A stretch of DNA of 64,000 nucleotides from Mycolicibacterium moriokaense (lineage in GTDB: Bacteria > Actinomycetota > Actinomycetes > Mycobacteriales > Mycobacteriaceae), in contig NZ_AP022560.1 in NCBI RefSeq assembly GCF_010726085.1, forward strand, positions 5,394,001-5,458,000. The letters run 5' to 3'. The notes below the pieces were generated by a model. That model was given only the letters and a program-made list of their open reading frames with translations. It had not been told where the DNA came from and made no database searches. Of the stretch, positions 40,066 through 57,665 are shown piece after piece; the stretch's first letter is position 1, and each line of letters starts with the position of its first letter. The position numbers were made by a program, and so were the translations under genes.

Positions 40066-40071
40066 GCTAGC
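40066..40071. repeat. Target-site duplication, right copy, containing the esterase stop codon
   Basis: GCTAGC. Its central CTA (40067-40069) is the TAG stop codon of the leftward esterase gene, so the duplication kept the esterase intact. Confidence 0.8.
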
Positions 40072-41296
40072 GCTGCGGGTGGCACCCGAGCACGTCGTGG
40101 AACAACGCCTGACGCAACGCGAGCTCTCTGGGGTCGCTGAAGGCGTGGTATCCGAGCTTGTTCATCACGTAGCCGTAGCCGATACCGGTGTTCGGATCGG
40201 CGAACCCGAACGAGCCACCCAGACCCGGCCATCCGTAAGCCCGGTCCGTGGAACCGAATACGAACTTCGATGTGGGCTTGCCGAACCCCAGCGAGAACGA
40301 CGAGTCCAGGTGCATGATCCTGTCGCGTGAGCCGCGCGTGGCCGGCACGGCGGGACCTTCCAAGGCGTCGCGGACGGATTGGCTCAGGCCCAGCTTTGGG
40401 TCGCCGGTGGCCGCGCTCGAGTAGAGCTTGGCGATCGATCTGGCGGTGCCCGTCCCGTTGACCGACGGTATCTCCGGGATCCGCAACTCGTCGCGGTTGA
40501 AGTCGCCCGCCTCCTTGATTCCCTCCGTCACCAGGAACGCGCGGGCGATCAGACTCTTCGGGTTGAACAGCCCCGCCACGAACAACGGGGGCATCGTGTG
40601 GAGATGCAGCAGCATTTCGCGTCGGGTGACGGGCTCCAGGAGTGCCACCCGGGTACGGTCGACCCGCTCCGGTAGCCCGATGTAGAAATCCAGATCGAGC
40701 GGCCCGGCGATCTCGTCGGCGAAGAACCGGCCTACCGTGCGCCCCTGTGGGTCCACCTTGCGGATGAGCGCGGACTGATACCACCCGAGCGTCACCGCGT
40801 GATAGCCGAATCGAGTGCCCGGCTCCCACGCGGGTACCTGCGCCTCGATTCGCCCCGCAAGTTTGTCCGGGTCGGCGATGTCGGCAAGCGACAGGGGCGG
40901 CGCGATCGCGACGAGCCCGGCCTGGTGGCTGAACAGCTGGCGGACGGTGATCGCGCCCTTCCCGCCCTGGGCGAACTCCGGCCAATAGTCGGCCACCTTG
41001 GCGTCGTAATCGAGCAGGCCTCGGGACGCAGCGACCGCAACGGCAATTGACGCAACACCTTTCGTGGTTGAGAACACGTTGACGATGGTGTCCCTCTCCC
41101 ACGGGGTGTGAGTGTGTCCGTTGCGGTACCCGCCCCACAGGTCGATGACCTTGCGGCCGTCGCGGTAGACCGCCAGAGCCGCCCCGATCTCCTGACCGCT
41201 GCTGAAGTTGCGACGGAACACGTCGGCGACCTGACCGTAACCGGCGTCGACCTCCCCTCCGATGAGATCTGTCGGGGTGTGGGGCGGTCGGACCAT
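40067..41296 (-). CDS. Serine esterase / beta-lactamase-family hydrolase (copy 1)
   Basis: 409 residues, class C beta-lactamase fold esterase (EstB, mycobacterial LipL type). The nucleophile and Lys are in VFSTTKGVASIAVAVA (S-x-x-K), the catalytic Tyr is probably in FGYHAVTLGWY, and LFSHQAGL and GLGGSFGFADPNTGIGYGYVMN are further family stretches. Cytosolic, no signal peptide. Probably a lipid or short-chain ester hydrolase. It follows its paralogue by 13 bases; its stop lies in the IS target duplication. Confidence 0.88.
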   Translation of the reverse strand: MVRPPHTPTDLIGGEVDAGYGQVADVFRRNFSSGQEIGAALAVYRDGRKVIDLWGGYRNGHTHTPWERDTIVNVFSTTKGVASIAVAVAASRGLLDYDAKVADYWPEFAQGGKGAITVRQLFSHQAGLVAIAPPLSLADIADPDKLAGRIEAQVPAWEPGTRFGYHAVTLGWYQSALIRKVDPQGRTVGRFFADEIAGPLDLDFYIGLPERVDRTRVALLEPVTRREMLLHLHTMPPLFVAGLFNPKSLIARAFLVTEGIKEAGDFNRDELRIPEIPSVNGTGTARSIAKLYSSAATGDPKLGLSQSVRDALEGPAVPATRGSRDRIMHLDSSFSLGFGKPTSKFVFGSTDRAYGWPGLGGSFGFADPNTGIGYGYVMNKLGYHAFSDPRELALRQALFHDVLGCHPQR

Positions 41297-41309
41297 GGTG
41301 TGGCCTTTC

Positions 41310-42548
41310 TCAGGATTGGGGCCGAGTCCCCAGGATGTCGCGGAACAGTGCCTGGCGCAGGCGCAGTCCTCGGGGATCGCTGATCAGGTGGAATCCGAGC
41401 CTGTTCATCACATAGGCGAAGCCGACGCCGGTGTCGGGATCGGCGAAGCCGACCGAACCGCCCGCGCCGGGCGCTCCGAACGCCCGCTCCGACGATCCGA
41501 TGACGTACTTCGGATTTCTGGGGATGGGCCTGCCGAAACCGAGGGAGAACAACGTGTCCACATGTAAGACCTTGTCGCGCAAGCCTTTCGTCGGGTGCAC
41601 GGGGGGTGCCGTCAACGCATCGAAGACCTGCGGCGTCAACCCGATCTCGGCGCCACCGATGGCGGCAGCACCGTAGAGCCTGGCCACGGACTCGGCGGTG
41701 CCTGTTCCGTTGGCGGCGGGGATCTCGACGACGCGCACGTCTTCGCGATTGAACGTCGAAAGCCCGGTGGCCCCTTCGAACGCGACACCCGCCTGCGCGG
41801 TCAACGTCATCGGAATGAACCAGGCGGCCGCCAGTCGGGGCGGCAGCACGTGCAGATGCAGCAGTGTCGCGAGCTGAGAGGGCACGTGGAGATGCGCCAC
41901 CCGGTCACGGTCGACATCGGCGGGCAATCCGATGTGGAAGTCCAGCCCGAGTGGCCCTGCGATCTCGTCGGCGAAATACCGGCCGAGGGTGCGCCGCTGC
42001 GGGTCGACATGCCGGATGAGTTCGGAGGCGTACCAGCCCAGCGTCACGCCGTGGTACCCGTGCCGGGTGCCCGGCCGCCACGCGGGGACCTGAGCCGCCA
42101 GCCGCTGCGACAGCTTCTCGGGCACGGCGATTTCGCCGAGGGTCACCAGCGGCTTGATCACCGGCAGCCCGGCCTGGTGGCCCAGCAGTTGTCGCACCGT
42201 GACGGCCTCCTTGCCGCCCTGAGCGAACTCCGGCCAGTAGTCGGCCACCCTGGCGTCGTAGTCCAACAGCCCACGCGAGACGGCCAGCGCGACCGTCAGG
42301 GCCGCAACACCTTTCGTCGTCGAGAACGTGTTGACGAGGGTGTCCTTCGTCCACGGGGCTCGGGTGTCGCCGTTGCGGAATCCGCCCCAGAGGTCGACGA
42401 CCTTGCGCCCGTCGCGGTAGACCGCGACCGCGGCGCCCACCTCCGCACCGCTGGAGAGGTTGAGTCGGAATGCGTCGGCGACTTTCCCGTAGCCCTCATC
42501 GACGTCACCGCATACGACCTCGGGCGAGACGCTGATTTTGGAAGCCAT
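41310..42548 (-). CDS. Serine esterase / beta-lactamase-family hydrolase (copy 2)
   Basis: 412 residues, tandem paralogue of the preceding entry with S-x-x-K in TFSTTKGVAALTVALA, Tyr in HGYHGVTLGWY and GAGGSVGFADPDTGVGFAYVMN. The N-terminal CGDVDEGYGKVADAFRLNLSSG aligns with copy 1. First gene of a two-gene leftward operon. Confidence 0.88.
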   Translation of the reverse strand: MASKISVSPEVVCGDVDEGYGKVADAFRLNLSSGAEVGAAVAVYRDGRKVVDLWGGFRNGDTRAPWTKDTLVNTFSTTKGVAALTVALAVSRGLLDYDARVADYWPEFAQGGKEAVTVRQLLGHQAGLPVIKPLVTLGEIAVPEKLSQRLAAQVPAWRPGTRHGYHGVTLGWYASELIRHVDPQRRTLGRYFADEIAGPLGLDFHIGLPADVDRDRVAHLHVPSQLATLLHLHVLPPRLAAAWFIPMTLTAQAGVAFEGATGLSTFNREDVRVVEIPAANGTGTAESVARLYGAAAIGGAEIGLTPQVFDALTAPPVHPTKGLRDKVLHVDTLFSLGFGRPIPRNPKYVIGSSERAFGAPGAGGSVGFADPDTGVGFAYVMNRLGFHLISDPRGLRLRQALFRDILGTRPQS

Positions 42549-43499: not shown

Positions 43500-43565
43500 T
43501 CGGCGATGCCAACTTCTCCTACCCATGGAAAACACTAGAAAACACCAGGTCATAAGGTGGTGAAC

Positions 43566-44228
43566 ATGACATCCGGCGCTCCGGTGCGGCTTGTCCTGGT
43601 CGACGACCACGAGATGGTCATCGAAGGTCTCAAAGCCATGCTCGCCGCCTTCCGCAACCGCGTGGAGGTGGTCGGGCAGGCGATCGGCGCCGAGCGGGCG
43701 GTCGGCGTCGTCGACGAACTCGATCCCGACATCGTGCTGTCAGACGTGCGGATGCACGGCTCAAGCGGCCTGGACCTGTGCATGGAACTTCGTGAACGCA
43801 ATCCGGAGCGCAAGGTCGTGATGCTGTCGGTGTACGACGACGAGCAGTACCTCTTCCAGGCCCTGCGCGTCGGCGCGTCGGGATACCTCCTGAAGAGCAT
43901 CACCAGCGACGAGCTGGTCCGACAGCTCGAGTTCGTCCATCGCGGGGAAACCGCGATCGACCCGAGCATGGCAGCCAGGGCGGTCGACACCGCTGCGCGG
44001 ATCCAGCGCGACGAGTTCTGGCCCGGTGCGCGGCAGGGGTTGACCCAACGCGAGAGCGAGATCCTGTCGTATGTGGTGAACGGTCTGTCCAACCGGGCCA
44101 TCGCAGGGAAGCTGGTGATCGGCGAGGAGACCGTCAAGACGCACCTGAGCTCCATCTACCGCAAGCTCGGCGTCACCGACCGAACAGGCGCGGTGGCCAC
44201 GGCGCTGCGGGAGGGCATCTACCAATGA
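43566..44228 (+). CDS. NarL/LuxR-family response regulator
   Basis: 220 residues. The receiver domain has VLVDDHEMVIEGL, phosphoacceptor Asp60 in IVLSDVRMHG and Lys in SGYLLKSITS; the C-terminal LuxR helix-turn-helix is LTQRESEILSYVVNGLSNRA, EETVKTHLSSIYRKLGV. A DNA-binding activator or repressor. ATG 43566 has AGGTGG upstream; GTG 43557 is less likely. Its TGA overlaps the kinase start as ATGA. Confidence 0.93.
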   Translation: MTSGAPVRLVLVDDHEMVIEGLKAMLAAFRNRVEVVGQAIGAERAVGVVDELDPDIVLSDVRMHGSSGLDLCMELRERNPERKVVMLSVYDDEQYLFQALRVGASGYLLKSITSDELVRQLEFVHRGETAIDPSMAARAVDTAARIQRDEFWPGARQGLTQRESEILSYVVNGLSNRAIAGKLVIGEETVKTHLSSIYRKLGVTDRTGAVATALREGIYQ

Positions 44229-45457
44229 CATGGCAGCCCCGGCCGCCCAACGCGGTCCACGACCTCGTCGACGCCGACCGCGAACTCGCCCTGCTGCGCG
44301 AGTTGATCCAGGCCGCGTCGTCGGGGCCCGGCGTCGAACCGCTGGCCGCCGCCGCGGCACGAATGATCACCGCCGCCACCGCCAGCGACGTCTGCTTCGT
44401 GCACGTCCTCGACGACAGCGACCGGTCACTGACGCTCGCGGGGGCCACGCCTCCGTTCGACGCCGAGATCGGCAAGATCCGCCTCCCGTTGGGACAGGGC
44501 ATTTCCGGATGGGTCGCCAGCCACCGCGAGCCCGTCATCATCACCGAGGACAAGGAGAGCGATCCCCGCTACATGCCCTTCCAGTCGCTGCGCGGCCGCG
44601 ACTTCACGTCGATGGTGTCGGTGCCTATGGAGACCGACCCGGGCGGCCTGGTGGGCGTGCTGAACATCCACACCGTCGAGCGGCGCGAGTTCACCGCACG
44701 GGACGTCGAACTTCTGTTGGTGATCGGCAGGCTGATCGCAGGCGCGCTGCATCAGGCTCGGCTGCACCGGCAGCTGGTGGCCCGCGAACGGGCACACGAG
44801 AACTTCGTCGAGCAGGTCATCGAGGCCCAGGAGATCGAGCGGCGGCGGCTGGCGGGCGATATTCATGACGGCATCTCGCAGCGGCTGATCACGCTGTCGT
44901 ACCGGCTCGACGCGGCCAGCCGCTCGGTGTCCGACGATCCGACCGCTGCCGCCGAACAGCTGGAGAAGGCGCGCGAACTGGTCGATCTGACGTTGCAGGA
45001 GGCGCGCGCGGCGATCAGCGGGCTGCGGCCCCCGGTGCTCGACGACCTCGGCCTCGCGGGTGGGCTGGCCAGCCTGGCGCGGTCCATCCCGCAGATCGGC
45101 ATCGAGGTCGATCTGGTGGAGGCCCGCGTGCCCGACCACATCGAGCTCGCGTTGTACCGGATCGCGCAGGAGTGCCTGCAGAACGTCGTCAAGCACGCGA
45201 AAGCCAAGTCCGCGCGGCTCACCTTCGCCGTCGACGCGACGGACAACGGCAGTGTCGCGCGCCTCGAAATCATCGACGACGGAGTCGGTTTCGACACCTT
45301 TGAGCATCCGCTGGGCAGCGACGAGATGGGCGGTTACGGCCTGCTGTCGATGGCTGAACGCGCCGAGATCGTCGGCGGCCGGCTCAACATCCGGTCCCGC
45401 CCCGGCTCGGGCACCGCCGTCACGGCGACGATCCCGCTGCCGCCCCAACTCCAGTGA
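44225..45457 (+). CDS. GAF-domain sensor histidine kinase, HisKA_3 type
   Basis: 410 residues. GAF domain (about 35-190; LPLGQGISGWVASHREPVII), then the HisKA_3 dimerisation region with His214 in RRRLAGDIHDGISQRL, and the HATPase with IDDGVGFD and GYGLLSMAERAEIVGG. No membrane segment, so it senses a cytosolic signal. Partner of the NarL-type regulator with which it overlaps by four bases. Confidence 0.92.
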   Translation: MTWQPRPPNAVHDLVDADRELALLRELIQAASSGPGVEPLAAAAARMITAATASDVCFVHVLDDSDRSLTLAGATPPFDAEIGKIRLPLGQGISGWVASHREPVIITEDKESDPRYMPFQSLRGRDFTSMVSVPMETDPGGLVGVLNIHTVERREFTARDVELLLVIGRLIAGALHQARLHRQLVARERAHENFVEQVIEAQEIERRRLAGDIHDGISQRLITLSYRLDAASRSVSDDPTAAAEQLEKARELVDLTLQEARAAISGLRPPVLDDLGLAGGLASLARSIPQIGIEVDLVEARVPDHIELALYRIAQECLQNVVKHAKAKSARLTFAVDATDNGSVARLEIIDDGVGFDTFEHPLGSDEMGGYGLLSMAERAEIVGGRLNIRSRPGSGTAVTATIPLPPQLQ

Positions 45458-45505: not shown

Positions 45506-46018
45506 CTAGAAATCGCCGGCGTTGCGGCGCAGCGTCTCGATCGACTCGGCGAGCGCCCTGGACTCGCGCTCGGACATCCCTATGTCGGCGAAGACCTCGT
45601 TGTTGAGCGTGACGGTGGCGTCCTCGACCGTCGACCGGCCGAGTTCGGTGATCCGCACGAGAGTGGTGCGCCCGTCCGTCGGATGCGGGATGCGCTCCAC
45701 CAGGCCGTCGGCCTCCAGTCGCCGAATGGCGTGCGTGACGCTGGTGACGTGGACCTGCAGGCGGTCGGACGCCTTGGTGATCGGTAGCGCCCCGTCGCGG
45801 GTGAACGCCAACAACCGCAGCAACTCGAAGCGGGAAAAACTGAGGTCATAGGGTCGCAGCGCGTTCTCAACCCGGGCCAGCAGAATCTGGTGCGCCCGCA
45901 TCACCGACGTGACCGCGACCATGCCGTCGGCCACATCACCCCAGCCGAAGCGCTCCCAGTTCTCGCGCGCCAACGCGATGGGATCGCGCTTGCGCGGCCA
46001 CGACGGTTGGGAGGGCAC
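45506..46018 (-). CDS. MarR-family transcriptional regulator, Rv0737-like
   Basis: 170 residues, winged helix: SFSRFELLRLLAFTRDGALP, ITKASDRLQVHVTSVTHAIRRLEADGLVERI and the wing HPTDGRTTLVRITELG. Start GTG 46018 with GAAGAGG close by. In M. tuberculosis the equivalent gene is next to rslA; here the four-gene cluster stands between. It may be the cluster's local regulator. Confidence 0.88.
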   Translation of the reverse strand: MPSQPSWPRKRDPIALARENWERFGWGDVADGMVAVTSVMRAHQILLARVENALRPYDLSFSRFELLRLLAFTRDGALPITKASDRLQVHVTSVTHAIRRLEADGLVERIPHPTDGRTTLVRITELGRSTVEDATVTLNNEVFADIGMSERESRALAESIETLRRNAGDF

Positions 46019-46062: not shown

Positions 46063-47097
46063 TCAGAGCGCGGCGGCCACCGCGTCCAACACCGCGCGGG
46101 TCGACTGTCGGCTGCCGACCGTGATGCGCACTCCCCCGTCGGCGTAGCCGCGGACTTGCAATTCGGTCCCTTCGAACACCTCCCGCCACTGCCGACCCCA
46201 CGACGGCAGATAGACGAAGTTGGCGTGTGCGTCGGTGCTGTAGACACCCATCGCCCGCAATCGCATGCGCAGGTAGCGACGTTCGGCGGTGATCATCCGG
46301 ATACGTTGCTGCAGCTCGCTTTCCGCATCGTAGGACGCGGCAACCGCGACCAGCCCGGTGATGGCGATGCCGAATGGCAGCTGCATGGTCCACATCCTGC
46401 GGGCCAACTCGGGGGCACAGAAGCCGTAACCGACGCGCAGCCCGGCCAACCCGTAGGCCTTCGAGAAGGTCCGCACCGCCACGACATTCGGATACCGCGC
46501 GATGAGCGCGGGTGTGTCGATCCGGTGGTGCGGCGACAGGAACTCCACATACGCCTCGTCCAGCAGCACGACGGTGTCCGACGGGACGCTGTCGAGGAAC
46601 CGCTCGATATCGGCCGACGACTCGACGGTGCCCGTCGGGTTGTGCGGCCGGCACACCACCACCACTTCGGCGTTCGCGGCGGCGTCGGCCATCGCGTCGA
46701 GGTCGTGGTGCCCGTGCTTGTCGAGAGGTACGGTCACCGACTCCAACCGGGCCATCTGGGCGAAGATCGGATAGCCGTCGAACGTCGGATACGTCATCAC
46801 GATCCGATCGCCCGGGCTCGTGAGGGCGCTCAGCACCTGCATGATGACGCCCGTGGCGCCGACGCCGATGACGACCTGGTCGGCGCTGACCCCGATGTGG
46901 TCGGCGATCAGTGCGCGAAGCCGCTCCGGCAGGAACTCCGGATACCGGTTGCCCGCATCGATCGCGGAGATCAGCGCGGATCGCACGCTGGGCAGCGGTG
47001 CGAACGGATTCTCGTTGAGAGACAGCGCCATTGAGTTCACCGCACTGGGTAGAGCGCTGACCGCGGCTTCCGTCACGGCATGATTCGGGCTGGCCAT
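46063..47097 (-). CDS. PLP aminotransferase, histidinol-phosphate/aromatic type
   Basis: 344-residue fold-type I aminotransferase of the HisC/Pat branch: SLNENPFAPLPSVR, RPHNPTGTVESS, LLDEAYVEF, PLP-Lys in TFSKAYGLAGLRVGYGF and substrate Arg in GGVRITVGSRQ. It is unlikely to be the housekeeping HisC because of its context: its ATG overlaps the KAS III stop by one base within a four-gene cluster. It would introduce or remove an amino group on a keto or amino acid intermediate. Confidence 0.88.
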   Translation of the reverse strand: MASPNHAVTEAAVSALPSAVNSMALSLNENPFAPLPSVRSALISAIDAGNRYPEFLPERLRALIADHIGVSADQVVIGVGATGVIMQVLSALTSPGDRIVMTYPTFDGYPIFAQMARLESVTVPLDKHGHHDLDAMADAAANAEVVVVCRPHNPTGTVESSADIERFLDSVPSDTVVLLDEAYVEFLSPHHRIDTPALIARYPNVVAVRTFSKAYGLAGLRVGYGFCAPELARRMWTMQLPFGIAITGLVAVAASYDAESELQQRIRMITAERRYLRMRLRAMGVYSTDAHANFVYLPSWGRQWREVFEGTELQVRGYADGGVRITVGSRQSTRAVLDAVAAAL

Positions 47098-48107
47098 CAG
47101 CCACGACCTCCCCACCGCACGGCGGCGGCCCCCGCGAAGTCTCCGGCGTGAGCGAAGGCCGACATCATCACGACGTCGCCCTTCTTCAGCTGGCCGTCGG
47201 TGATGGCGCGGTCGAGGTTGACCGGTATCCCCGCGGCGAACATGTTCCCGCACTCGTCGAATGTGTCACGGTGCCGCTCCGGCGGAAGCTCCAACGCCTC
47301 GCGCCAGTTGCGCAGGAACGCCCGGTTCGGCTGGTTGGTGACCAACAGGTCGAGATCCTTTGGCTTCACCCCGATCCGATCGCAGACGGCGTACGACACC
47401 TCGGGCACCTGACGGTTACCCCGGGCCAGCACCTTGGTGATCTTGCTTTCGGTGAATCCGATCGACGCCTCGCCCGTACCGGGTTGCCACCACTTGCGCG
47501 GCGGATCGACCGCAATGGTCATATCGCCGGCGTACTCGCCGTACGTACGGCATTCGATGTCGAGGATCGGTGACTCGTCGGACAGAGTCACCAGCCCCAC
47601 CGCGGCACCGTCGCCGGGCACCGCCGCCTGCGCCTTGCGCCGCACCGTCGGCTGGTTGAACGCCTGCCCGGCCGCGTTCGAAGCGATCGCGATCAGCGCG
47701 GTGTGCCCTTCGCCCGACTCGATCAGGGTGCGTGCCACCTTCAGTCCGAGCACGAACGCCGCGCATCCTCCGTTGTGCAGATCGAGCACCCAATTCGGTT
47801 TCATGCCAAGCCGATGCGCGGTTCCACCGCCGCCACCGTAGAACGGGATGTCAGGCATCTGGGCGTGCGTGATGAGGATGTCGGCACCCGCTATTGCGTC
47901 GTGGCCGTGGCGTTCGATCAAACCGGCCGCCGCGCGCTCGACCATGTCGATGGCCGTCTCGTCCTCGGCGACATGGTGGCGGAACTTCGGCGCCCGGAAC
48001 ATCACGTTGTCCCTCAGGTCATCTGACTCGGCGAACTGCGCGTAGTACTCCGCGCTGATCGGCTCCCCGGGCAGATAAGTCGACACATCTATCAGACTGA
48101 CGGTCAT
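47097..48107 (-). CDS. 3-oxoacyl-ACP synthase III (KAS III)-like condensing or acyltransferase enzyme
   Basis: 336 residues, thiolase fold. Catalytic Cys115 is in LHNGGCAAFVLG and the late Asn is in ECGNMFAAGIP (Asn288). At the FabH His-Gln-Ala-Asn position the sequence is TNQPN (Asn258), so the catalytic His is missing. An enzyme of this kind may acylate a hetero-atom or carry out a non-decarboxylative reaction (compare CerJ/DpsC-type KAS III enzymes). Seven bases after the SRPBCC gene. Confidence 0.85.
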   Translation of the reverse strand: MTVSLIDVSTYLPGEPISAEYYAQFAESDDLRDNVMFRAPKFRHHVAEDETAIDMVERAAAGLIERHGHDAIAGADILITHAQMPDIPFYGGGGGTAHRLGMKPNWVLDLHNGGCAAFVLGLKVARTLIESGEGHTALIAIASNAAGQAFNQPTVRRKAQAAVPGDGAAVGLVTLSDESPILDIECRTYGEYAGDMTIAVDPPRKWWQPGTGEASIGFTESKITKVLARGNRQVPEVSYAVCDRIGVKPKDLDLLVTNQPNRAFLRNWREALELPPERHRDTFDECGNMFAAGIPVNLDRAITDGQLKKGDVVMMSAFAHAGDFAGAAAVRWGGRG

Positions 48108-48114
48108 TGCGTCC

Positions 48115-48786
48115 TCACTTCATCCAGTCCGGGGTGGTGGAAAGCCCGTTGCGGTAGCGGTATTCGGCGATTGCCTTGAGGTTCTTCAGCTCCAGCAGGT
48201 GTCCAGGTCCGAACATGTCCCAGAAGTCACCGACCCAGACCGGTCGCTGCGCCGGGGCGGTCTCCGGGTAGGGGTTGTTGTCGTAGAACGGGTGGTGGCA
48301 GTTCGTCCACAGCACCACGGAACCGGGCTTGTCGAACACCAGCTGGGCGTCGACGATGCGCATCAGATAGATCATCCAGAGGTGCTTGCCCTGATCCCAC
48401 GCGCAGTGGTAGTCCACCGTGCGGGCCTCTTTGTTCGCCACGGTGCGGGTGAATATCGGGCTGCCGGTCTCGCCGCCGAGTTTGTCGTAGGCGACCCACA
48501 GGCCGGGCTCCTCGGTGGGCTCGAAGCCACGGAGGCTGTAGGTCCACTCCTCGAGGCAGCGGGTGTCGGCCATGTAGTCGAACAACTCATCGGGTGGACA
48601 GTCGATGTAATCGTTTACGGTGCAATAGGTTCCGAACACCTCGTCGTGCGGATACACCGATCGCATCATCTCCATGATGATCGGCGTCGCCGTCTCTCTC
48701 GGCGACGTCTCGACGCGGATCACCCCGTCGATCGGATCGGCGGTTCCGCGGTGGACGGTGATGTCCTCAAGTGCGGGCAACGACAT
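48115..48786 (-). CDS. SRPBCC (START-like) domain protein
   Basis: 223 residues. YIDCPPDELFDYMADTRCLEEW is the SRPBCC entry strand and helices, and VDYHCAWDQGKHLWMIYLM and VVLWTNCHHPFYDNN form later strands with unusual His and Asn content. Members bind hydrophobic ligands and include polyketide cyclases and aromatases. ATG 48786 has AAGGAG eight bases upstream and overlaps the end of the ThDP gene by 20 bases. Confidence 0.82.
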   Translation of the reverse strand: MSLPALEDITVHRGTADPIDGVIRVETSPRETATPIIMEMMRSVYPHDEVFGTYCTVNDYIDCPPDELFDYMADTRCLEEWTYSLRGFEPTEEPGLWVAYDKLGGETGSPIFTRTVANKEARTVDYHCAWDQGKHLWMIYLMRIVDAQLVFDKPGSVVLWTNCHHPFYDNNPYPETAPAQRPVWVGDFWDMFGPGHLLELKNLKAIAEYRYRNGLSTTPDWMK

Positions 48787-50497
48787 TGACGTGCTCCTTC
48801 TGTGTGGTGCTTGGTTGACTGACTGCATCGGCAGAGTTGCCGAGAAAGGCTGCGAATGGCGGGACCTCGTCTGGGGAGCACTCGATGCTGATAACCGAGG
48901 GACCATCGACGTCGAGTGCGGCGGCCAGCGCATCGGGCAGCTCGCTGGGGTCGGCAACGTCGAGGGAACGCAGTCCCGGGAACATCGCGGCCAGCCCGGC
49001 GCCCAGCCGGCTCGGCCCGAATCGGTTGTAGCTGTAGTGATCGCCGTAGAACACCTGCTCGCGGGTCACGCACATCGCGTGCGCGTGGTTGTCGAACAGC
49101 AGGAACGTGATCGGGAGCCGGTACTGCACCGCCGTATGGATCTCCATACCGTGCATGTAGAACGAGCCGTCCCCGGCGATGACGACGGTGCGGCCTCCGG
49201 TGTCGGCGGCACGGCCGAACGCCATGCCGATACCGGCACCGAAGCTGTACCCCATTCCACCCATGCCCAGTGCGACGACGAAACGGCCGCCGCGGCGCGC
49301 CGGAAGATGATGTATCGCAGACGCGCCGATGTTGCCGGCGTCGACGACGACGTCGACGGCGTCGGGCAGCATCCGGTCGAGCACCGTCAGCGCATCGCGG
49401 TACCGAATCCCCGGCCCCTCGTGGGCTGGCGGGTGCAGCTCGGAGTGCAGCATCGAATCCGGTACGCGAATGCGGGCCGGGCGGCCATGACCCGTCAACG
49501 CTGCGGTGAGCGACGCCAGCGAACCACGCAGATCCTTGGTGTGCACATGCGTGCACGGCAGATACGGCGTCTCGGCGCCGATCGAGTAGACCTGCGTCGA
49601 CCGCAGCGCGTCGTCCAATCCCGCGCGGGCCGTCACCGACAACCTGGTGCCGACCACAAGGCACAGTGCGCTTTCGGCGATCGCGTCCGCGATACCCGGA
49701 TGCCCCATCACGCCGGTCACGCCGAGTGCCGACGATGAGCCCATCCCCGGTGTGCCCGCAGCGTCCTTCGCGTCGGGAACGCATGCCACGCGCGCCCGTA
49801 ACAGCGACCGCAGTCGCTCGAGTTCCGCGCGGGCGTCGTCACGGACGACTTGTTCACCGGCGATGATCGTCACGGGCCCGTCGACGCGGCGCAGCGCACG
49901 CGCGATCGGATGCGGATTGCCGGTGTAGCGATCGCGATGGTTGGTCGACACGGCAGATCCGTTCACCGCCGTGAGGGTTGCCCGCTGAATATCCTTGGGC
50001 AGCAACAGGACTGCCGGTCCACCCGTGCGTGCCGCGGCAATCGCTTCCGGTAGCGCCGTCAGGATGTCCTCGGGTGCCGTTACCCGCCTGCAGTACACCG
50101 ACACCGCCGAAAACAGCGCGTGGGCGTCCAGTGAACCGTTCAGGCCACTGGTGTCCTGGAACGCACCCCGTCCGTCGAGAGACGTCGGCGCCTGTCCGAT
50201 GAGCGCCAGCACGGGAACTCGGCTCGCGAAGGCCTCACCGAGACCGGGCACGGTGTTGAGGCATCCACCACCCGATGTCGCGGCGATCACACCGAGTCCA
50301 GATCCGCTGCGGCTGTAGCCGTCGGCCATTGTCGCAGCGGAGAACTCGTGCTTTGCCAGTACGGCGGTGATGTCGGCGCGGTAATACGCAGCGTCGTAAA
50401 GGTCTTCGATGTTGGCGCCGTCGACGCCGAATATGTAATCGACGCCGATCCCCGCGAGAGTGCCGACGATGTGGTCGACTACCCGATGCCTGCCCAT
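48767..50497 (-). CDS. Thiamine diphosphate-dependent enzyme, acetolactate synthase-like
   Basis: 576 residues with the three ThDP-enzyme domains. The cofactor-activating Glu51 is in AKHEFSAATMADGY, the central domain has the family pattern, and the Mg/ThDP motif is GDGSFYMHGMEIHTAVQ to FDNHAHAM (442-474) with a single Asn (Asn470) before His. It would decarboxylate or condense a 2-keto acid. It is too diverged for the biosynthetic IlvB and no small subunit is adjacent. First gene of the four-gene cluster, with a SigL-type promoter directly upstream. Confidence 0.88.
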   Translation of the reverse strand: MGRHRVVDHIVGTLAGIGVDYIFGVDGANIEDLYDAAYYRADITAVLAKHEFSAATMADGYSRSGSGLGVIAATSGGGCLNTVPGLGEAFASRVPVLALIGQAPTSLDGRGAFQDTSGLNGSLDAHALFSAVSVYCRRVTAPEDILTALPEAIAAARTGGPAVLLLPKDIQRATLTAVNGSAVSTNHRDRYTGNPHPIARALRRVDGPVTIIAGEQVVRDDARAELERLRSLLRARVACVPDAKDAAGTPGMGSSSALGVTGVMGHPGIADAIAESALCLVVGTRLSVTARAGLDDALRSTQVYSIGAETPYLPCTHVHTKDLRGSLASLTAALTGHGRPARIRVPDSMLHSELHPPAHEGPGIRYRDALTVLDRMLPDAVDVVVDAGNIGASAIHHLPARRGGRFVVALGMGGMGYSFGAGIGMAFGRAADTGGRTVVIAGDGSFYMHGMEIHTAVQYRLPITFLLFDNHAHAMCVTREQVFYGDHYSYNRFGPSRLGAGLAAMFPGLRSLDVADPSELPDALAAALDVDGPSVISIECSPDEVPPFAAFLGNSADAVSQPSTTQKEHVNVVART

Positions 50498-50503
50498 ATA
50501 CAG

Positions 50504-50531
50504 GACACGATTGGCTAGCCGATTCGGTTCA
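50504..50531 (-). promoter_or_regulatory. SigL-type promoter of the four-gene cluster
   Basis: On the minus strand TGAACC (50526-50531), 16 bases, CGTGTC (50504-50509), then six bases to the ATG at 50497. This equals the published M. tuberculosis SigL consensus as I remember it (TGAACC-N16/17-CGTgtc). The distance to the ATG implies a leaderless or nearly leaderless message. Confidence 0.8.
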
Positions 50532-50545
50532 CCCGGTGTCTCGAA

Positions 50546-51274
50546 TCACAGCTTCTTTTCCAGCAGCACTTGTCCGGAATCGGGCGAAACCAGTTGCACA
50601 GCAGCGATTTGATCCATCGGAAGCGGCGTGTTGCCGCTCGGCAACGCCGTCGCGCCTGACAAGCCGAGCCACGTCGCAACCTGACTCTGGCTTCCATCGC
50701 GACCGACGACGACCATGCCGAGGTTCTGCGGCGGTGCGTCGCGTCGGCCCCAATCCCCGTACGTGCATGCCATGTCGATGCGGGTGCCCCAGCCGTAACC
50801 GGTCATGCTGATGGTCGCGTTGATCGGCGTATCGGACACCTTCGTCATTTCCATCGCCGCGGCGGCCGGCTGATCATCGCTCTGCTGCAGCCCGAAACTC
50901 TGCGGTCGGATCCCGACCACCAGCGCGATGGCCACGACGGCGGCCGCGACGGCGAGCGCGGCGGTGGTCATCCAGCGCGAGCGTCTGCGTTGTGCCTGCA
51001 CGCGAGTCAGCAACGAATCCAGCATGTGCGGCGGCGGCTGCGACTGCTCGCCGTCGATCGCCGCGACATCCGCGGTGTCGAGGGTGGCGAGCAGCGGCGG
51101 GATATCACTCAGCTCCGCGACGGCGGCGCGGCAGCGCGCACATGTCGGTAGGTGTGCCTCGTATTCGCGGCGGTCCTCCTCGGTCAAGGAGCCGAGCACG
51201 TAGGCGGCGTCCCAAGTCGCATAGCGGTCGTCGTTCAAGCCTTCACCGCCTTGGGCCAGCCCCAAGCGTGTCAT
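50546..51274 (-). CDS. rslA: Anti-sigma factor RslA (ZAS family)
   Basis: 242 residues. The cytosolic zinc-binding anti-sigma domain carries HLPTCARC (H-x3-C-x2-C), one membrane helix is at about 104-124 (AALAVAAAVVAIALVVG), and an exported domain of about 115 residues follows. It holds SigL inactive until a redox or envelope signal. Its ATG overlaps the sigL stop as ATGA. Confidence 0.94.
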   Translation of the reverse strand: MTRLGLAQGGEGLNDDRYATWDAAYVLGSLTEEDRREYEAHLPTCARCRAAVAELSDIPPLLATLDTADVAAIDGEQSQPPPHMLDSLLTRVQAQRRRSRWMTTAALAVAAAVVAIALVVGIRPQSFGLQQSDDQPAAAAMEMTKVSDTPINATISMTGYGWGTRIDMACTYGDWGRRDAPPQNLGMVVVGRDGSQSQVATWLGLSGATALPSGNTPLPMDQIAAVQLVSPDSGQVLLEKKL

Positions 51275-51795
51275 CGTGTCACCCCCATCTCCTGCAACGT
51301 GAGCCGCAAGGCCCGCATGCCGTAGTGCAGCCGTGACTTCACGGTGCCCTCGGCGATCTGCAGGTCGGCAGCGATCTGGGCGGTGGTGGCGCCCTGGTAG
51401 TACGCGCGGCTGATGACCGCGCGGTGGTCCTCGGACAGCTGGGCCATGGCCTCAGTGAGCAACATGCGGTCCAGCGCCGTCTCCACCTCGTCGGGCCCTG
51501 CGCGGTCCGCCGCTTGTTCCATGTCGGGAGTGCCCGATTCGCTGCGGAACCTCGCGCTTCGTCGGTCGTCGATGACAAGGTTACGCGCCACGGTGAACAA
51601 CCACCCCCGCGCGGATCTCTCGGTGTCGTCAGTCACCTCGGGGTGACGCCACGCACGCAGAAGCGTCTCCTGCACGACATCCTCCGCCCGAGCTGTATCC
51701 CCGGTGAGTCGCACGGCATAGCGCCAAAGCGCAGCGGCGTGCTCCTGATAGAGCACCCGCATGACCTGCCCTTCCGCGGTCGCCGGGTCGTCCAA
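51271..51795 (-). CDS. sigL: ECF RNA polymerase sigma factor SigL
   Basis: 174 residues. Region 2 is LYQEHAAALWRYAVRLTGD, AEDVVQETLLRAWRHP; region 4 is LSEDHRAVISRAYYQGATTAQIAADLQIAEGTVKSRLHYGMRAL. The open frame extends to 51843, but TTG 51795 is chosen because GGAGG (51804-51808) lies eight bases upstream and because the SigL-type promoter occupies 51815-51842, so an ATG at 51843 would be upstream of the transcription start. Confidence 0.94.
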   Translation of the reverse strand: MDDPATAEGQVMRVLYQEHAAALWRYAVRLTGDTARAEDVVQETLLRAWRHPEVTDDTERSARGWLFTVARNLVIDDRRSARFRSESGTPDMEQAADRAGPDEVETALDRMLLTEAMAQLSEDHRAVISRAYYQGATTAQIAADLQIAEGTVKSRLHYGMRALRLTLQEMGVTR

Positions 51796-51814: not shown

Positions 51815-51842
51815 AATACGAGGTTGCAGCTCATCTGGTTCA
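51815..51842 (-). promoter_or_regulatory. SigL-type autoregulatory promoter of sigL
   Basis: Minus strand: TGAACC (51837-51842), 16 bases, CGTATT (51815-51820). Same -35, same spacing and the same CGT as the promoter at 50504-50531. The start would fall about 13-17 bases before the TTG start, with GGAGG included. Confidence 0.75.
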
Positions 51843-51957
51843 CTCACGGCGGGTGGTGAAGCGACGCGTCGCAGCTCAAGAATGCCCCGAAATAGAGTTC
51901 CGGGTCGTGAAATGACGCTGCTCGCAGCCCGGAATGCTATTTCGCCGGAGCGCGGCC

Positions 51958-54647: not shown

Positions 54648-54918
54648 TCTTCCTCCTGCGCAGCCGACCTGTCTCTAGCGGCATGCAAATGTGGCTGGTC
54701 TGACCAGCGAGTTCTGGTTAAGTCTGGGTGCGGACCGCCGTCAGGCGCACAGCCTGCGAAGTCACGTGTCAAACAGTCTAGAAGACTAACAGTTGCAGCT
54801 CCTTTGCCCTGCATCCAGTGACCTTGACTTGGGCTCACAGTGACTTCTCAGCTCGGGAACATACCGTGGGGTCATCTCGTTATATCCACTAAGTAAATAA
54901 CTCTCGTAGGGGCTGATG

Positions 54919-55851
54919 ATGGCAAGGACTGACAACGACACCTGGGATCTCGCATCGAGCGTCGGTGCGACGGCGACGATGGTCGCCGCGGCCCGCGCGA
55001 TCGCGACCGCGGCAGACGAAGCGCTGATCAACGATCCGTTCGCCGAGCCGCTGGTGCGCGCGGTCGGGGTGGACTTCTTCACCAAGCTGGCTAGCGGGGA
55101 ACTGCGCGTCGAGGATCTCGACGTCGACCATGCATCGGTCGGGATGGCGCGGATGACCGACAACATGGCGGTGCGGACCAAGTTCTTCGACGAGTTCTTC
55201 CAAGATGCGGCTGCGGCGGGGATCCGCCAGGCGGTCATCCTGGCGTCGGGCCTCGATTCCCGCGCCTACCGTCTGGACTGGCCTGCGGGTACGACGGTCT
55301 ACGAAATCGATCAGCCCGAGGTGATCGAGTTCAAGACCAGGACGCTCGCCGAGTTCGGCGCCGAGCCGACCGCTGATCGCAGAACGGTAGCCGTCGACCT
55401 CCGCTACGACTGGCCGTCGGCACTCATCGCCGCCGGCTTCGACCCGAGCCAGCCCACCGCGTGGAGTGCCGAGGGTCTACTCGGCTACCTGCCGCCGGAG
55501 GCGCAGGACAAGCTGCTCGACACCATCACCGAGCTCAGCGCCGTCGGCAGTCGCGTCGCGGTCGAGAGCTCGCCGAGCATCTCCCCCGAGGACAGCGAGA
55601 AGGCGATCGAGCGTATGCAGGAGGCTGCGCAGCAATGGCGCAACCACGGCTTCGAGCTCGACTTCGGTGATCTCATCTACATGGGCGATCGCAACGAGGC
55701 GTCGGCGTATCTGGCCGATCGCGGGTGGCAGATCTCGTCGCAGGGCGTCAAGCAGCTGTTGAGGGATAACGGCCTGTCGGCTATCGAGGATGATGAGGAC
55801 GCCGCGCGCTTCGGCGAGTTGCAGTACGTCACCGGCATACTCGGAAAATGA
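54919..55851 (+). CDS. Class I SAM-dependent methyltransferase, TIGR00027 family (copy 1)
   Basis: 310 residues. N-terminal [19 protein letters not shown], the SAM-binding [33 protein letters not shown], and the [16 protein letters not shown] motif of the mycobacterial family (Rv0725c/Rv0726c/Rv0731c). Substrate unknown, probably a lipid or secondary metabolite O-group. ATG 54916 is adjacent; 54919 aligns with the paralogues. Confidence 0.9.
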
Positions 55852-56759
55852 GCACCGACAGCCGAACCGACGGCGACAGCTGGGATCTGGCGTCCAGCGT
55901 CGGTACCACCGCGACGATGGTCGCGGCGGCGCGCGCCGTTAGCAGTCGAGAGCACAACGCGCTTTTCGATGACCCGTACGCCGCGCCGCTGGTGCGTGCA
56001 GTCGGGCTGGAGTTCTTCACCCGACTCGTCGACGGCGAGGTCGAACTTCCTGACGACGCCGAACCGGGCGGTCCGGCGTTCCTGGCCACGTCCATCGCGG
56101 TGCGCACACGGTTCTTCGACGACTTCTTCAAGGATGCGTGTGCCGCAGGGGTCAGGCAGGCGGTGATCCTGGCATCCGGTCTGGACTCACGTGCGTACCG
56201 GCTGCCGTGGTCCGACGGGACCATCGTGTACGAGATCGATCAGCCGCGAGTGATCGAATTCAAGACCGCGACAATGACGTCGATCGGTGCGCGCCCCGCA
56301 GCCGAGCATCGGACGGTCGGCATCGACCTGCGGGAGGACTGGCCGAAGGCGTTGCGCGACAGCGGTTTCGATGTCAACCAGCCGACGGCGTGGAGCGCCG
56401 AGGGACTGCTGGTGTACCTGCCGCCAGAAGCGCAGGACCGGCTGTTCGACAACATCACCGCGCTCAGCGCGCCGGGCAGTCAGTTGGCCACCGAGTATCA
56501 CCCGGACGCCGCCGCCAGCATCGGCTCGCGGATGAAGGCGATCAAGGCGCAATTGGATGACGCGCCCGACCTGGACATCACACAGCTGTTCTACGACGGC
56601 GAGCGCAACGGCGTCGTCGAGTACCTCACCGAACGCGGCTGGCACGTGTCTGCGCGTCGCCGTCCGGATGTCTTCGCCGGCTACGGGCGAGAGTTTCCCG
56701 ACACCGAAGCCCTTGTACCGCTGCGCGATTCACTCGCGGTGATCGCGACCAGAAAGTAG
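55848..56759 (+). CDS. Class I SAM-dependent methyltransferase, TIGR00027 family (copy 2)
   Basis: 303 residues, tandem paralogue: [56 protein letters not shown]. Its ATG overlaps the stop of copy 1 as ATGA, so the copies are coupled. Confidence 0.9.
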
Positions 56760-56764
56760 GAGAC

Positions 56765-57665
56765 ATGGCACGCACCGACAACGATTCATGGGACTTGGCA
56801 TCCAGCGTCGGGTCGACGGCGACGATGGTCGCCGCCCAGCGGGCGCTGAGCAACCGCGAGGGTCTCATCTTCGACCCGTACGCCGAGCCGCTCGTGCGCG
56901 CCGTCGGCCTCGACTTCTTCGTCAAGGCGCTTGACGGCGAGATCCAGTTCGACGACGTCGATCCCCGCTTCAGTTTGCGCCGTACTGCCGAGGGAATGGC
57001 CGTCCGCACACGCCATTTCGACTCCCTGTTCACCAATGCGACCGCCGCGGGTGTCCGTCAGGCGGTGATACTGGCCGCCGGCCTGGACGCGCGAGCCTAT
57101 CGGCTGGCCTGGCCCGCCGGTACCACGATCTACGAGCTGGACCAGCCCGAGGTCATCGCCTTCAAAACCGAGACCCTTGCCCAGTTGGGCGCCGAACCTG
57201 CGGCGGACCGAAGGGCGATCGCGGTCGATCTTCGTGATGACTGGCCGAAAGCACTGCTGGACAACGGCTTCGACCCCACCCAACCGACAGCCTGGATCGC
57301 CGAGGGCCTGCTGATCTACCTGCCGGGCCGAAGCGCAGGATCTGCTGTTCGACCGTATCGACGAGCTCAGCGCTCCTGGTAGCCGCATCGCCACCGAGCA
57401 CATCCCGGATATCAGCGCGTTCTCCGACGGGCGGTCACGGGTGATCGCCGACCGGCTCAAGAAGTACGGACACGACATCGAAATGTCGGAGCTGATCTAC
57501 CACGAGAAGCGCAACGACGTCGTTGAGTACCTGACGGCGCGCGGGTGGGACGTCACTGCGCAGAACGTGCGGGACGCATACGCCGCCAACGGATTCGAGT
57601 TCCCTGAGGACGGGACGATGGGCTTCTTCACCGATATGAGCTACCTGACGGCGATCAAACGCTAA
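56765..57665 (+). pseudogene. Class I SAM-dependent methyltransferase (copy 3), frameshifted
   Basis: Starts six bases after copy 2 and matches the family to [10 protein letters not shown], then a single inserted base near 57322-57330 (CCGGGCCGAAG where copy 2 has a 10-base CCGCCAGAAG) shifts the frame to a TAG at 57380-57382. In the other frame the protein continues [20 protein letters not shown] to the normal C terminus GFFTDMSYLTAIKR with stop TAA 57663-57665. No other damage is seen, so the lesion is recent or a sequencing error. Confidence 0.85.

Follow-up and report, generated by a model that had tools for sequence, protein, structure and literature searches.

A minus-strand operon of four genes lying behind sigL and rslA was analysed in Mycolicibacterium moriokaense, within a stretch of 64,000 nucleotides of contig NZ_AP022560.1 (hereafter the window; all coordinates refer to it, and the genes and promoters from sigL to the MarR regulator lie on its minus strand). 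The operon codes for a thiamine diphosphate (ThDP)-dependent enzyme, a SRPBCC protein, an enzyme resembling 3-ketoacyl-acyl carrier protein synthase III (KAS III-like) and a pyridoxal phosphate (PLP) aminotransferase, and we propose with moderate confidence that it is a redox-switched operon for the synthesis of a carbazole-type aromatic. In the proposed mechanism, oxidation of the anti-sigma factor RslA would free the sigma factor SigL, which would drive transcription of sigL itself and also use a promoter adjoining the ATG at 50497 to produce a single mRNA that encodes the four enzymes. As to substrates and product, we infer that the aminotransferase would take the first step and convert an aromatic amino acid, most likely tryptophan, into an aryl-pyruvate, which the ThDP enzyme would join to pyruvate. 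The KAS III-like enzyme would then condense the ThDP product with an acyl-coenzyme A or an acyl-acyl carrier protein (ACP) before ring closure, and the SRPBCC protein, acting as a CqsB2-like cyclase, would close the newly formed ring and aromatise it, yielding a carbazole-type aromatic prone to catechol/o-quinone chemistry.

Read along the minus strand, map, sigL and rslA come first, then the promoter and the genes of the ThDP enzyme, the SRPBCC protein, the KAS III-like enzyme and the aminotransferase, and last that of the MarR regulator. The sigL gene (51271..51795) codes for an extracytoplasmic function (ECF) sigma factor recognised by the NF007227 model (265.9 bits for a cut-off of 202), and rslA (50546..51274) for a zinc-associated anti-sigma factor with a zf-HC2 domain, the HxxxCxxC motif in the form HLPTCARC and a hydrophobic stretch seen by eye. 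The ThDP enzyme (48767..50497) is CqsB3/NzsH-like by Pfam and homology, and the ATG of the SRPBCC protein (48115..48786), at 48786, lies inside the end of its gene, so that the two genes overlap. After a gap of 7 bases comes the KAS III-like enzyme (47097..48107), CqsB1/NzsJ-like by Pfam, trees and residues, whose stop codon shares one base with the ATG (47097) of the aminotransferase gene (46063..47097), which is of the HisC/aromatic (Pat) type by Pfam, profile score and PDB sequence match. The tight packing of the four genes from 50497 to 46063 after sigL-rslA, with overlaps or gaps under 10 bases, had been described in a first-pass annotation of this DNA and is borne out. The MarR gene (45506..46018, assigned by Pfam and neighbourhood) starts 44 bases beyond the end of the aminotransferase gene, occupies the Rv0737 position and bounds the variable site on its far side.

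Relation of the four enzymes to carbazole biosynthesis

Pfam confirms the class of three of the four operon proteins, and the SRPBCC protein gave no Pfam or NCBIfam match at E<=0.001. When the PDB sequences were searched with this protein, CqsB2, the carbazole synthase of Streptomyces exfoliatus (PMC7466098; papers are cited by identifier and for the excerpts available), was the sole match even at E<=10 (E 4.3e-46), with 45% identity across 176 residues. In agreement with this result, a structural model with a predicted local distance difference test score (pLDDT) of 62 matched the fold of CqsB2 (TM 0.57) and no other at E<=0.001. The CqsB2 residues Y144, Y172, H206 and E209 are invariant in 146 aligned cyclases, among them all 140 of those labelled type II as described below. 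Of 110 loci collected around close relatives of the ThDP enzyme, 109 have a CqsB2 homologue beside the ThDP gene, and the one that does not (L083) ends at a contig edge. Ring formation of the carbazole-synthase kind by the operon is considered quite likely.

The characterised cqs and nzs clusters contain the same four enzyme classes (CqsB1, B2, B3 and B7; NzsJ, I, H and D). In S. exfoliatus, CqsB7 converts tryptophan into indole-pyruvate, the ThDP enzyme CqsB3 adds pyruvate, the KAS III-like CqsB1 uses 3-hydroxybutyryl-ACP for a condensation with the product, and ring closure by CqsB2 yields a catechol, which goes on to oxidise to an o-quinone (PMC7466098). The chlocarbazomycin (chlCz) cluster has the same four enzymes together with flavin adenine dinucleotide (FAD) oxidoreductases, and its aminotransferase is annotated as a histidinol-phosphate transaminase (PMC10100901). 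By analogy, the match of the four gene types to the published cqs set would give a tryptophan-to-carbazole-type core, and the aminotransferase of the operon likely makes an aryl-pyruvate. The latter is 42-44% identical to the aminotransferases of the type I loci L235-L237 and 32-34% identical to those of L162 and L238; its best PDB sequence match is 4r2n, a putative phenylalanine aminotransferase (E 2e-58). The ThDP enzyme is 33-34% identical to its type I partners, and its best PDB matches are BbmA/CsmA, which could not be traced in the literature.

Relatives were labelled type I or type II from the KAS motif and the gene order, with loci L236 and L237 as stand-ins for the CqsB1 reference of the catalytic triad; their cyclases are 98% identical to CqsB2 and both loci carry prenyltransferase and FabH relatives. 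The operon differs from cqs/nzs in gene order (ThDP-cyclase-KAS-aminotransferase as opposed to KAS-cyclase-ThDP), in its KAS triad (C-N-N and not C-H-N), in the cyclase position 105 (Asp and not the Glu of CqsB2, the other four of five catalytic residues being kept) and in its SigL-type promoter. In type II proteins, 109 KAS triads read C-N-N and 30 sequences end before the third residue, whereas C-H-N was found in 6/6 type I proteins. Since the labels derive in part from the KAS motif, this split holds by construction; that at cyclase position 105 is independent. Phylogenetic trees were built with 25 of the 109 mycobacterial sequences and 17 other loci, plus CqsB2 for the cyclase or two FabH rows for the KAS, the fragmentary L173 being excluded from trees and residue counts and L157 from the KAS count. 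Type I separated from type II in the trees, which have several long branches and, for the KAS, a base that is not resolved. The same two diagnostic residues were found in type II clusters of a Streptomyces-like genus, Rhodococcus, Nocardia and Tsukamurella, and the ThDP-cyclase-KAS order of the operon recurs in 16/16 Streptomyces-like type II loci. Judged on sequence, the operon is a member of a sister "type II" subfamily that stands beside, and not inside, the characterised cqs/nzs pathway.

Several of these results weigh against a carbazole product. The catalytic His of the KAS is replaced by Asn in 139/139 type II proteins scored, so that a condensation of the CqsB1 type is not assured, and the Glu105 position of CqsB2 is Asp in 140/140 type II cyclases, compared with Glu in 6/6 type I cyclases and in CqsB2 itself. 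The operon, taken as the interval from MarR to rslA, has no ACP, dedicated FabH/classical KAS III or prenyltransferase gene, although fatty acid synthesis might provide ACP and KAS III, and no mycobacterial carbazole pathway was found reported in the literature searched. Because two active sites have changed together, the type II acyl donor or last ring step probably differs from that of cqs/nzs, and the chance that the product is carbazole proper is put at about even; it may be carbazole or another fused aromatic.

The strongest alternative, tentative in our judgement, keeps the chemistry and changes the product: the type II enzymes would take phenyl- or hydroxyphenylpyruvate as their aryl-pyruvate, or a different acyl donor, and make a fused aromatic other than a carbazole or a phenolic lipid. 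It agrees with the co-occurrence of the KAS Asn and the cyclase Asp, with the separation of type I in the trees, with the phenylalanine aminotransferase as the nearest solved sequence of the aminotransferase and with the AMP ligase gene found inside one copy of the cluster (L046). On the other side stand the invariance of the other four CqsB2 residues and the TrpB-type genes near some relatives, namely trpB in Nocardia and, in Tsukamurella, a TrpB-like gene together with a member of the indole monooxygenase family.

The first-pass annotation had expected a small amino-ketone, amide or acyloin-type product. We regard this reading, under which the aminotransferase would act on that product and the SRPBCC protein would do no more than bind a ligand, as improbable. 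An acyloin-type carboligation is indeed what a ThDP enzyme would be expected to perform, and the acyloin-type intermediate is retained in our proposal; the amino-ketone and the amide are not, the SRPBCC protein being a carbazole-synthase homologue that keeps four of five cyclase catalytic residues. Our own first guess had been a chemistry like that of the xenocyloin-type acyloin pathway, in which a ThDP carboligase and KAS III-like partners act on aryl-pyruvates and which, to our knowledge, has no CqsB2-type cyclase; it was superseded by the CqsB2 match of the SRPBCC protein. By the cqs/nzs/chlCz precedent the aminotransferase comes first, supplying the aryl-pyruvate, and the acyl chain is added by the KAS III-like enzyme ahead of ring closure (PMC7466098, PMC10100901).

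The SigL-type promoter and expression of the operon

The exact TGAACC-N16-CGTGTC element reported six bases ahead of the first ATG is confirmed by the letters of the window (50504..50531): TGAACC begins at 50531 and, after N16, CGTGTC runs to 50504 and is followed by CTGTAT and the ATG at 50497. It is the sole zero-mismatch site within the window; when up to two mismatches are allowed, the number of sites (10) is what chance would give (8.9). Across the whole genome, TGAACC-N16/17-CGTGT occurs nine times and a control with the pattern read backwards not once; an equal-base estimate gives about six, so that the motif alone is no proof. In the set of 110 ThDP loci (the window itself included, some genomes counted twice), however, TGAACN-N16-CGT precedes the ThDP gene in 105. 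With the strict pattern TGAAC[CT]-N16-CGT[GA]T, searched from -150 to +20 of the ThDP start in 80 named loci (relatives were limited to the best 80 of 396, and some genomes contribute more than one locus), a site was found in 72/80 loci as against 0/16000 mononucleotide shuffles. Such conservation supports the promoter much more strongly than a single exact match could, and a chance match, considered as a candidate explanation of the site, was rejected on this ground.

Upstream of other genes the strict site was found in 1/80 cases for SRPBCC, 0/79 for KAS, 0/79 for the aminotransferase, 0/73 for RslA, 0/71 for MarR, 0/64 for Map and 0/64 for Adk. For SigL the count was 12/66, low because the sequence slice ended short of most sigL sites, and it rose to 51/66 with a wider slice and a looser pattern (L011 excluded); in the window the sigL site is TGAACC-N16-CGTATT (51815..51842). 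Three of the eight strict-site misses (L024, L050 and L087) differ at one -10 base, and no SigL gene was seen in the stretch examined around the other five (L046, L047, L060, L062 and L066). In other Mycobacteriales a SigL-type site precedes the ThDP gene in 3/13 loci read (L161, L166 and L170); none was seen before the ThDP gene of L158 and L162-L165, and L222-L241 lay outside the scan. Among the nine genome matches, the exact sites near base 1500 of L119, L123 and L124 stand shortly before the start codons of a mycolic-acid methyltransferase-like, a lipoprotein-like and an Mpt53-like gene, respectively (identities by eye).

In the 72 loci with a strict site, the distance from site to start is 6-12 bases in 29 and at least 27 bases in 43. 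A simple Shine-Dalgarno pattern was detected in 0/29 of the short-spaced loci and 6/43 of the long-spaced ones, and the long leaders mostly show AGGTG before the start on viewing 20 of the 72 loci. As a 6-nt spacer is best for M. tuberculosis SigL (PMC6372665), the transcription start is placed on the A of the ATG at 50497, and a leaderless mRNA is predicted for the operon. The C-14, G-13, T-12, G-11 and C-9 of the window fit the revised SigL -10 consensus of the same paper, and the M. tuberculosis SigL-RslA regulon (pks10, Rv1139c, sigL) has the same -10 type. M. tuberculosis RslA also shares the zinc motif of the window protein, and its affinity for SigL is weakened by oxidation (PMC2877774). 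In M. tuberculosis and M. smegmatis, the counterpart of the MarR protein binds to the promoter of sigL-rslA (PMC13002591).

Published expression data exist for MAP4208-4211 of M. avium subsp. paratuberculosis, which were equated with the operon by gene name and order, not by sequence; the order there (sigL, rslA, oxidoreductase, hypothetical, methyltransferase, ABC genes, ilvB and so on) is similar to that of locus L045. One day after treatment with the rhodanine D157070, MAP4208, MAP4209, MAP4210 and MAP4211 were up 6.93-, 7.41-, 7.04- and 6.19-fold, together with sigL (2.60-fold), rslA (2.50), pks10 (2.43), mpt53 (7.43) and the Rv1139c homologue (7.93), and SigL-related control was suggested by the authors (PMC2806251). 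In a furA deletion mutant, MAP4208-4211 were down 6.7-10-fold (PMC4319475). The pathway had been called an undescribed, SigL-switched one in the first-pass annotation: its co-regulation was in fact published in that 2009 microarray paper (PMC2806251), and the novelty that stands, as far as the excerpts go, is its chemistry.

The conserved promoter, the sites before sigL and the co-induction in M. avium subsp. paratuberculosis (PMC2806251) make SigL control of the operon very likely, and we infer that SigL acts directly and that the four genes share a single mRNA. Some observations tell against this control. The window departs from the revised SigL consensus at -8/-7 (PMC6372665), the A at -8 being present in 56/72 loci and not in the window. 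The expression data for the operon are correlational: MAP4208 was up in acid-nitrosative stress and MAP4211 down in macrophages (PMC3416667), and in a macrophage study where sigL and other SigL targets were up, the main text does not mention ilvB, fabH or acetolactate (PMC9469519). At locus L063 and at tandem copies, L023 among them, the site is present but no SigL gene was seen in the stretch examined. The presumed SigL -35 consensus is TGAACC, as in the first-pass annotation, and the similar sites before sigL agree with it. As an alternative, the promoter could match by chance or serve a different ECF sigma factor, with the operon no more than a neighbour of sigL. The nine genomic matches for about six expected, the copies with a site and no SigL gene, and a link to SigL drawn from sequence and co-induction would allow it; it is nevertheless a slender prospect in view of the 72 conserved sites, of the five copies in which the N16 site and the SigL gene are absent together, of the similar sites before sigL and of the co-induction.

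Distribution, variant copies and significance

A ThDP match at E<=1e-80, scored on this protein alone, was found in 266/396 genomes of the genus and was absent from 130/396. In 20 of these 130 genomes the MarR gene was present in 20/20, with sigL-rslA-MarR in a row in 15; the other 5/20 also lack sigL-rslA at that place. The absence of a cluster between rslA and Rv0737 in M. tuberculosis, stated in the first-pass annotation, agrees with the literature, in which Rv0737 directly follows sigL-rslA (PMC13002591), and the cyclase gene MAP4209 is without an M. tuberculosis homologue in the tables available from PMC2806251 and PMC4319475. In the class at large, a cyclase match was found in 28/394 genomes and 6/137 genera, and in the Streptomyces-like genus a cyclase homologue of either type in 36/392 genomes (loci examined: 20 of the 39 matches listed). 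A housekeeping role as spare acetolactate synthase, FabH and HisC, which the automatic gene names of PMC2806251 and PMC4319475 and an aminotransferase score somewhat under the HisC cut-off (245 vs 276.6 bits) would suggest, was set aside as very improbable on the low scores of the acetolactate synthase (205.5 vs 538.4 bits) and FabH (100.3 vs 292.1 bits) models and the patchy presence of the ThDP enzyme, to which the adjacent CqsB2 homologue and the tailoring genes around some copies may be added.

The latter genes, found at L046, L063 and L023, code for P450, FAD_binding_4 oxidase, flavin monooxygenase (FMO)-like, FAD_binding_3, O-methyltransferase or AMP-ligase neighbours, as in natural-product clusters. 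L046, which has a P450 and a FAD oxidase gene on its flanks and the AMP ligase inside, is one of four copies (with L047, L060 and L062) that lack an N16 site and in which about 2 kb separate the KAS gene from the aminotransferase gene. Copies at L023, L035, L038, L039, L055 and L074 adjoin a distant RslA-like gene, each with TGAACT-N16-CGTGT[T/C], and a M. nebraskense contig bears two cluster copies about 12 kb apart. In L051, L053, L056, L057 and L070 an additional or incomplete match to SigL or an RslA-like protein, perhaps a decayed duplicate, was seen near the cluster. In L166, L161 and L045, ATP-binding cassette (ABC) transporter genes lie between rslA and the cluster (assigned with Pfam in L166 and L045 and by eye in L161) and could possibly export the product. 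The cyclase gene stands ahead of the ThDP gene in M. kyorinense E861 (L076, 8267-10773), and in L168 and in L159 of Nocardia the KAS/aminotransferase pair is apart from the cyclase/ThDP pair. Hemerythrin-domain genes were noted beside type II clusters of Rhodococcus (L156, 6553-7263) and Nocardia (L159, 11121-11753).

In the window itself, sigL likely starts at TTG 51795 (174 residues), which has GGAGG eight bases upstream, and the longest-open-reading-frame rule probably mis-starts it: the alternative GTG at 51843 would put the sigL promoter inside the gene, overlapping its first ten codons. Most SigL homologues align across about 165-190 residues. Three similar tandem S-adenosylmethionine (SAM)-dependent methyltransferase-like genes (54916-57382), two similar tandem beta-lactamase-fold esterase-like genes (40067-42548) and a response regulator/histidine kinase-like pair oriented toward the MarR gene (43557-45457) were recognised by eye.

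It is an evenly balanced proposition that about two-thirds of mycobacterial species, the M. avium group included, use a SigL-controlled operon in the thiol-oxidation response to make a redox-active lipid or quinone of the carbazole type or of a new fused aromatic type, by a His-free KAS III-like condensation coupled to a modified cyclase, and that M. tuberculosis kept the switch (sigL-rslA-MarR) and not the product. The SigL-RslA redox switch would gain a plausible dedicated small-molecule output, missing at that locus in M. tuberculosis, and the "ilvB, regulator, fabH, pat" labels of the M. avium subsp. paratuberculosis expression studies would become one testable pathway. A second, widespread subfamily of carbazole-synthase machinery is defined, in which two successive enzymes carry changed catalytic residues. 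The proposal predicts a metabolite class that was not found reported from mycobacteria in the literature searched, and the many mycobacteria that carry the genes may, under stress, produce a redox-active small molecule that has gone unrecognised.

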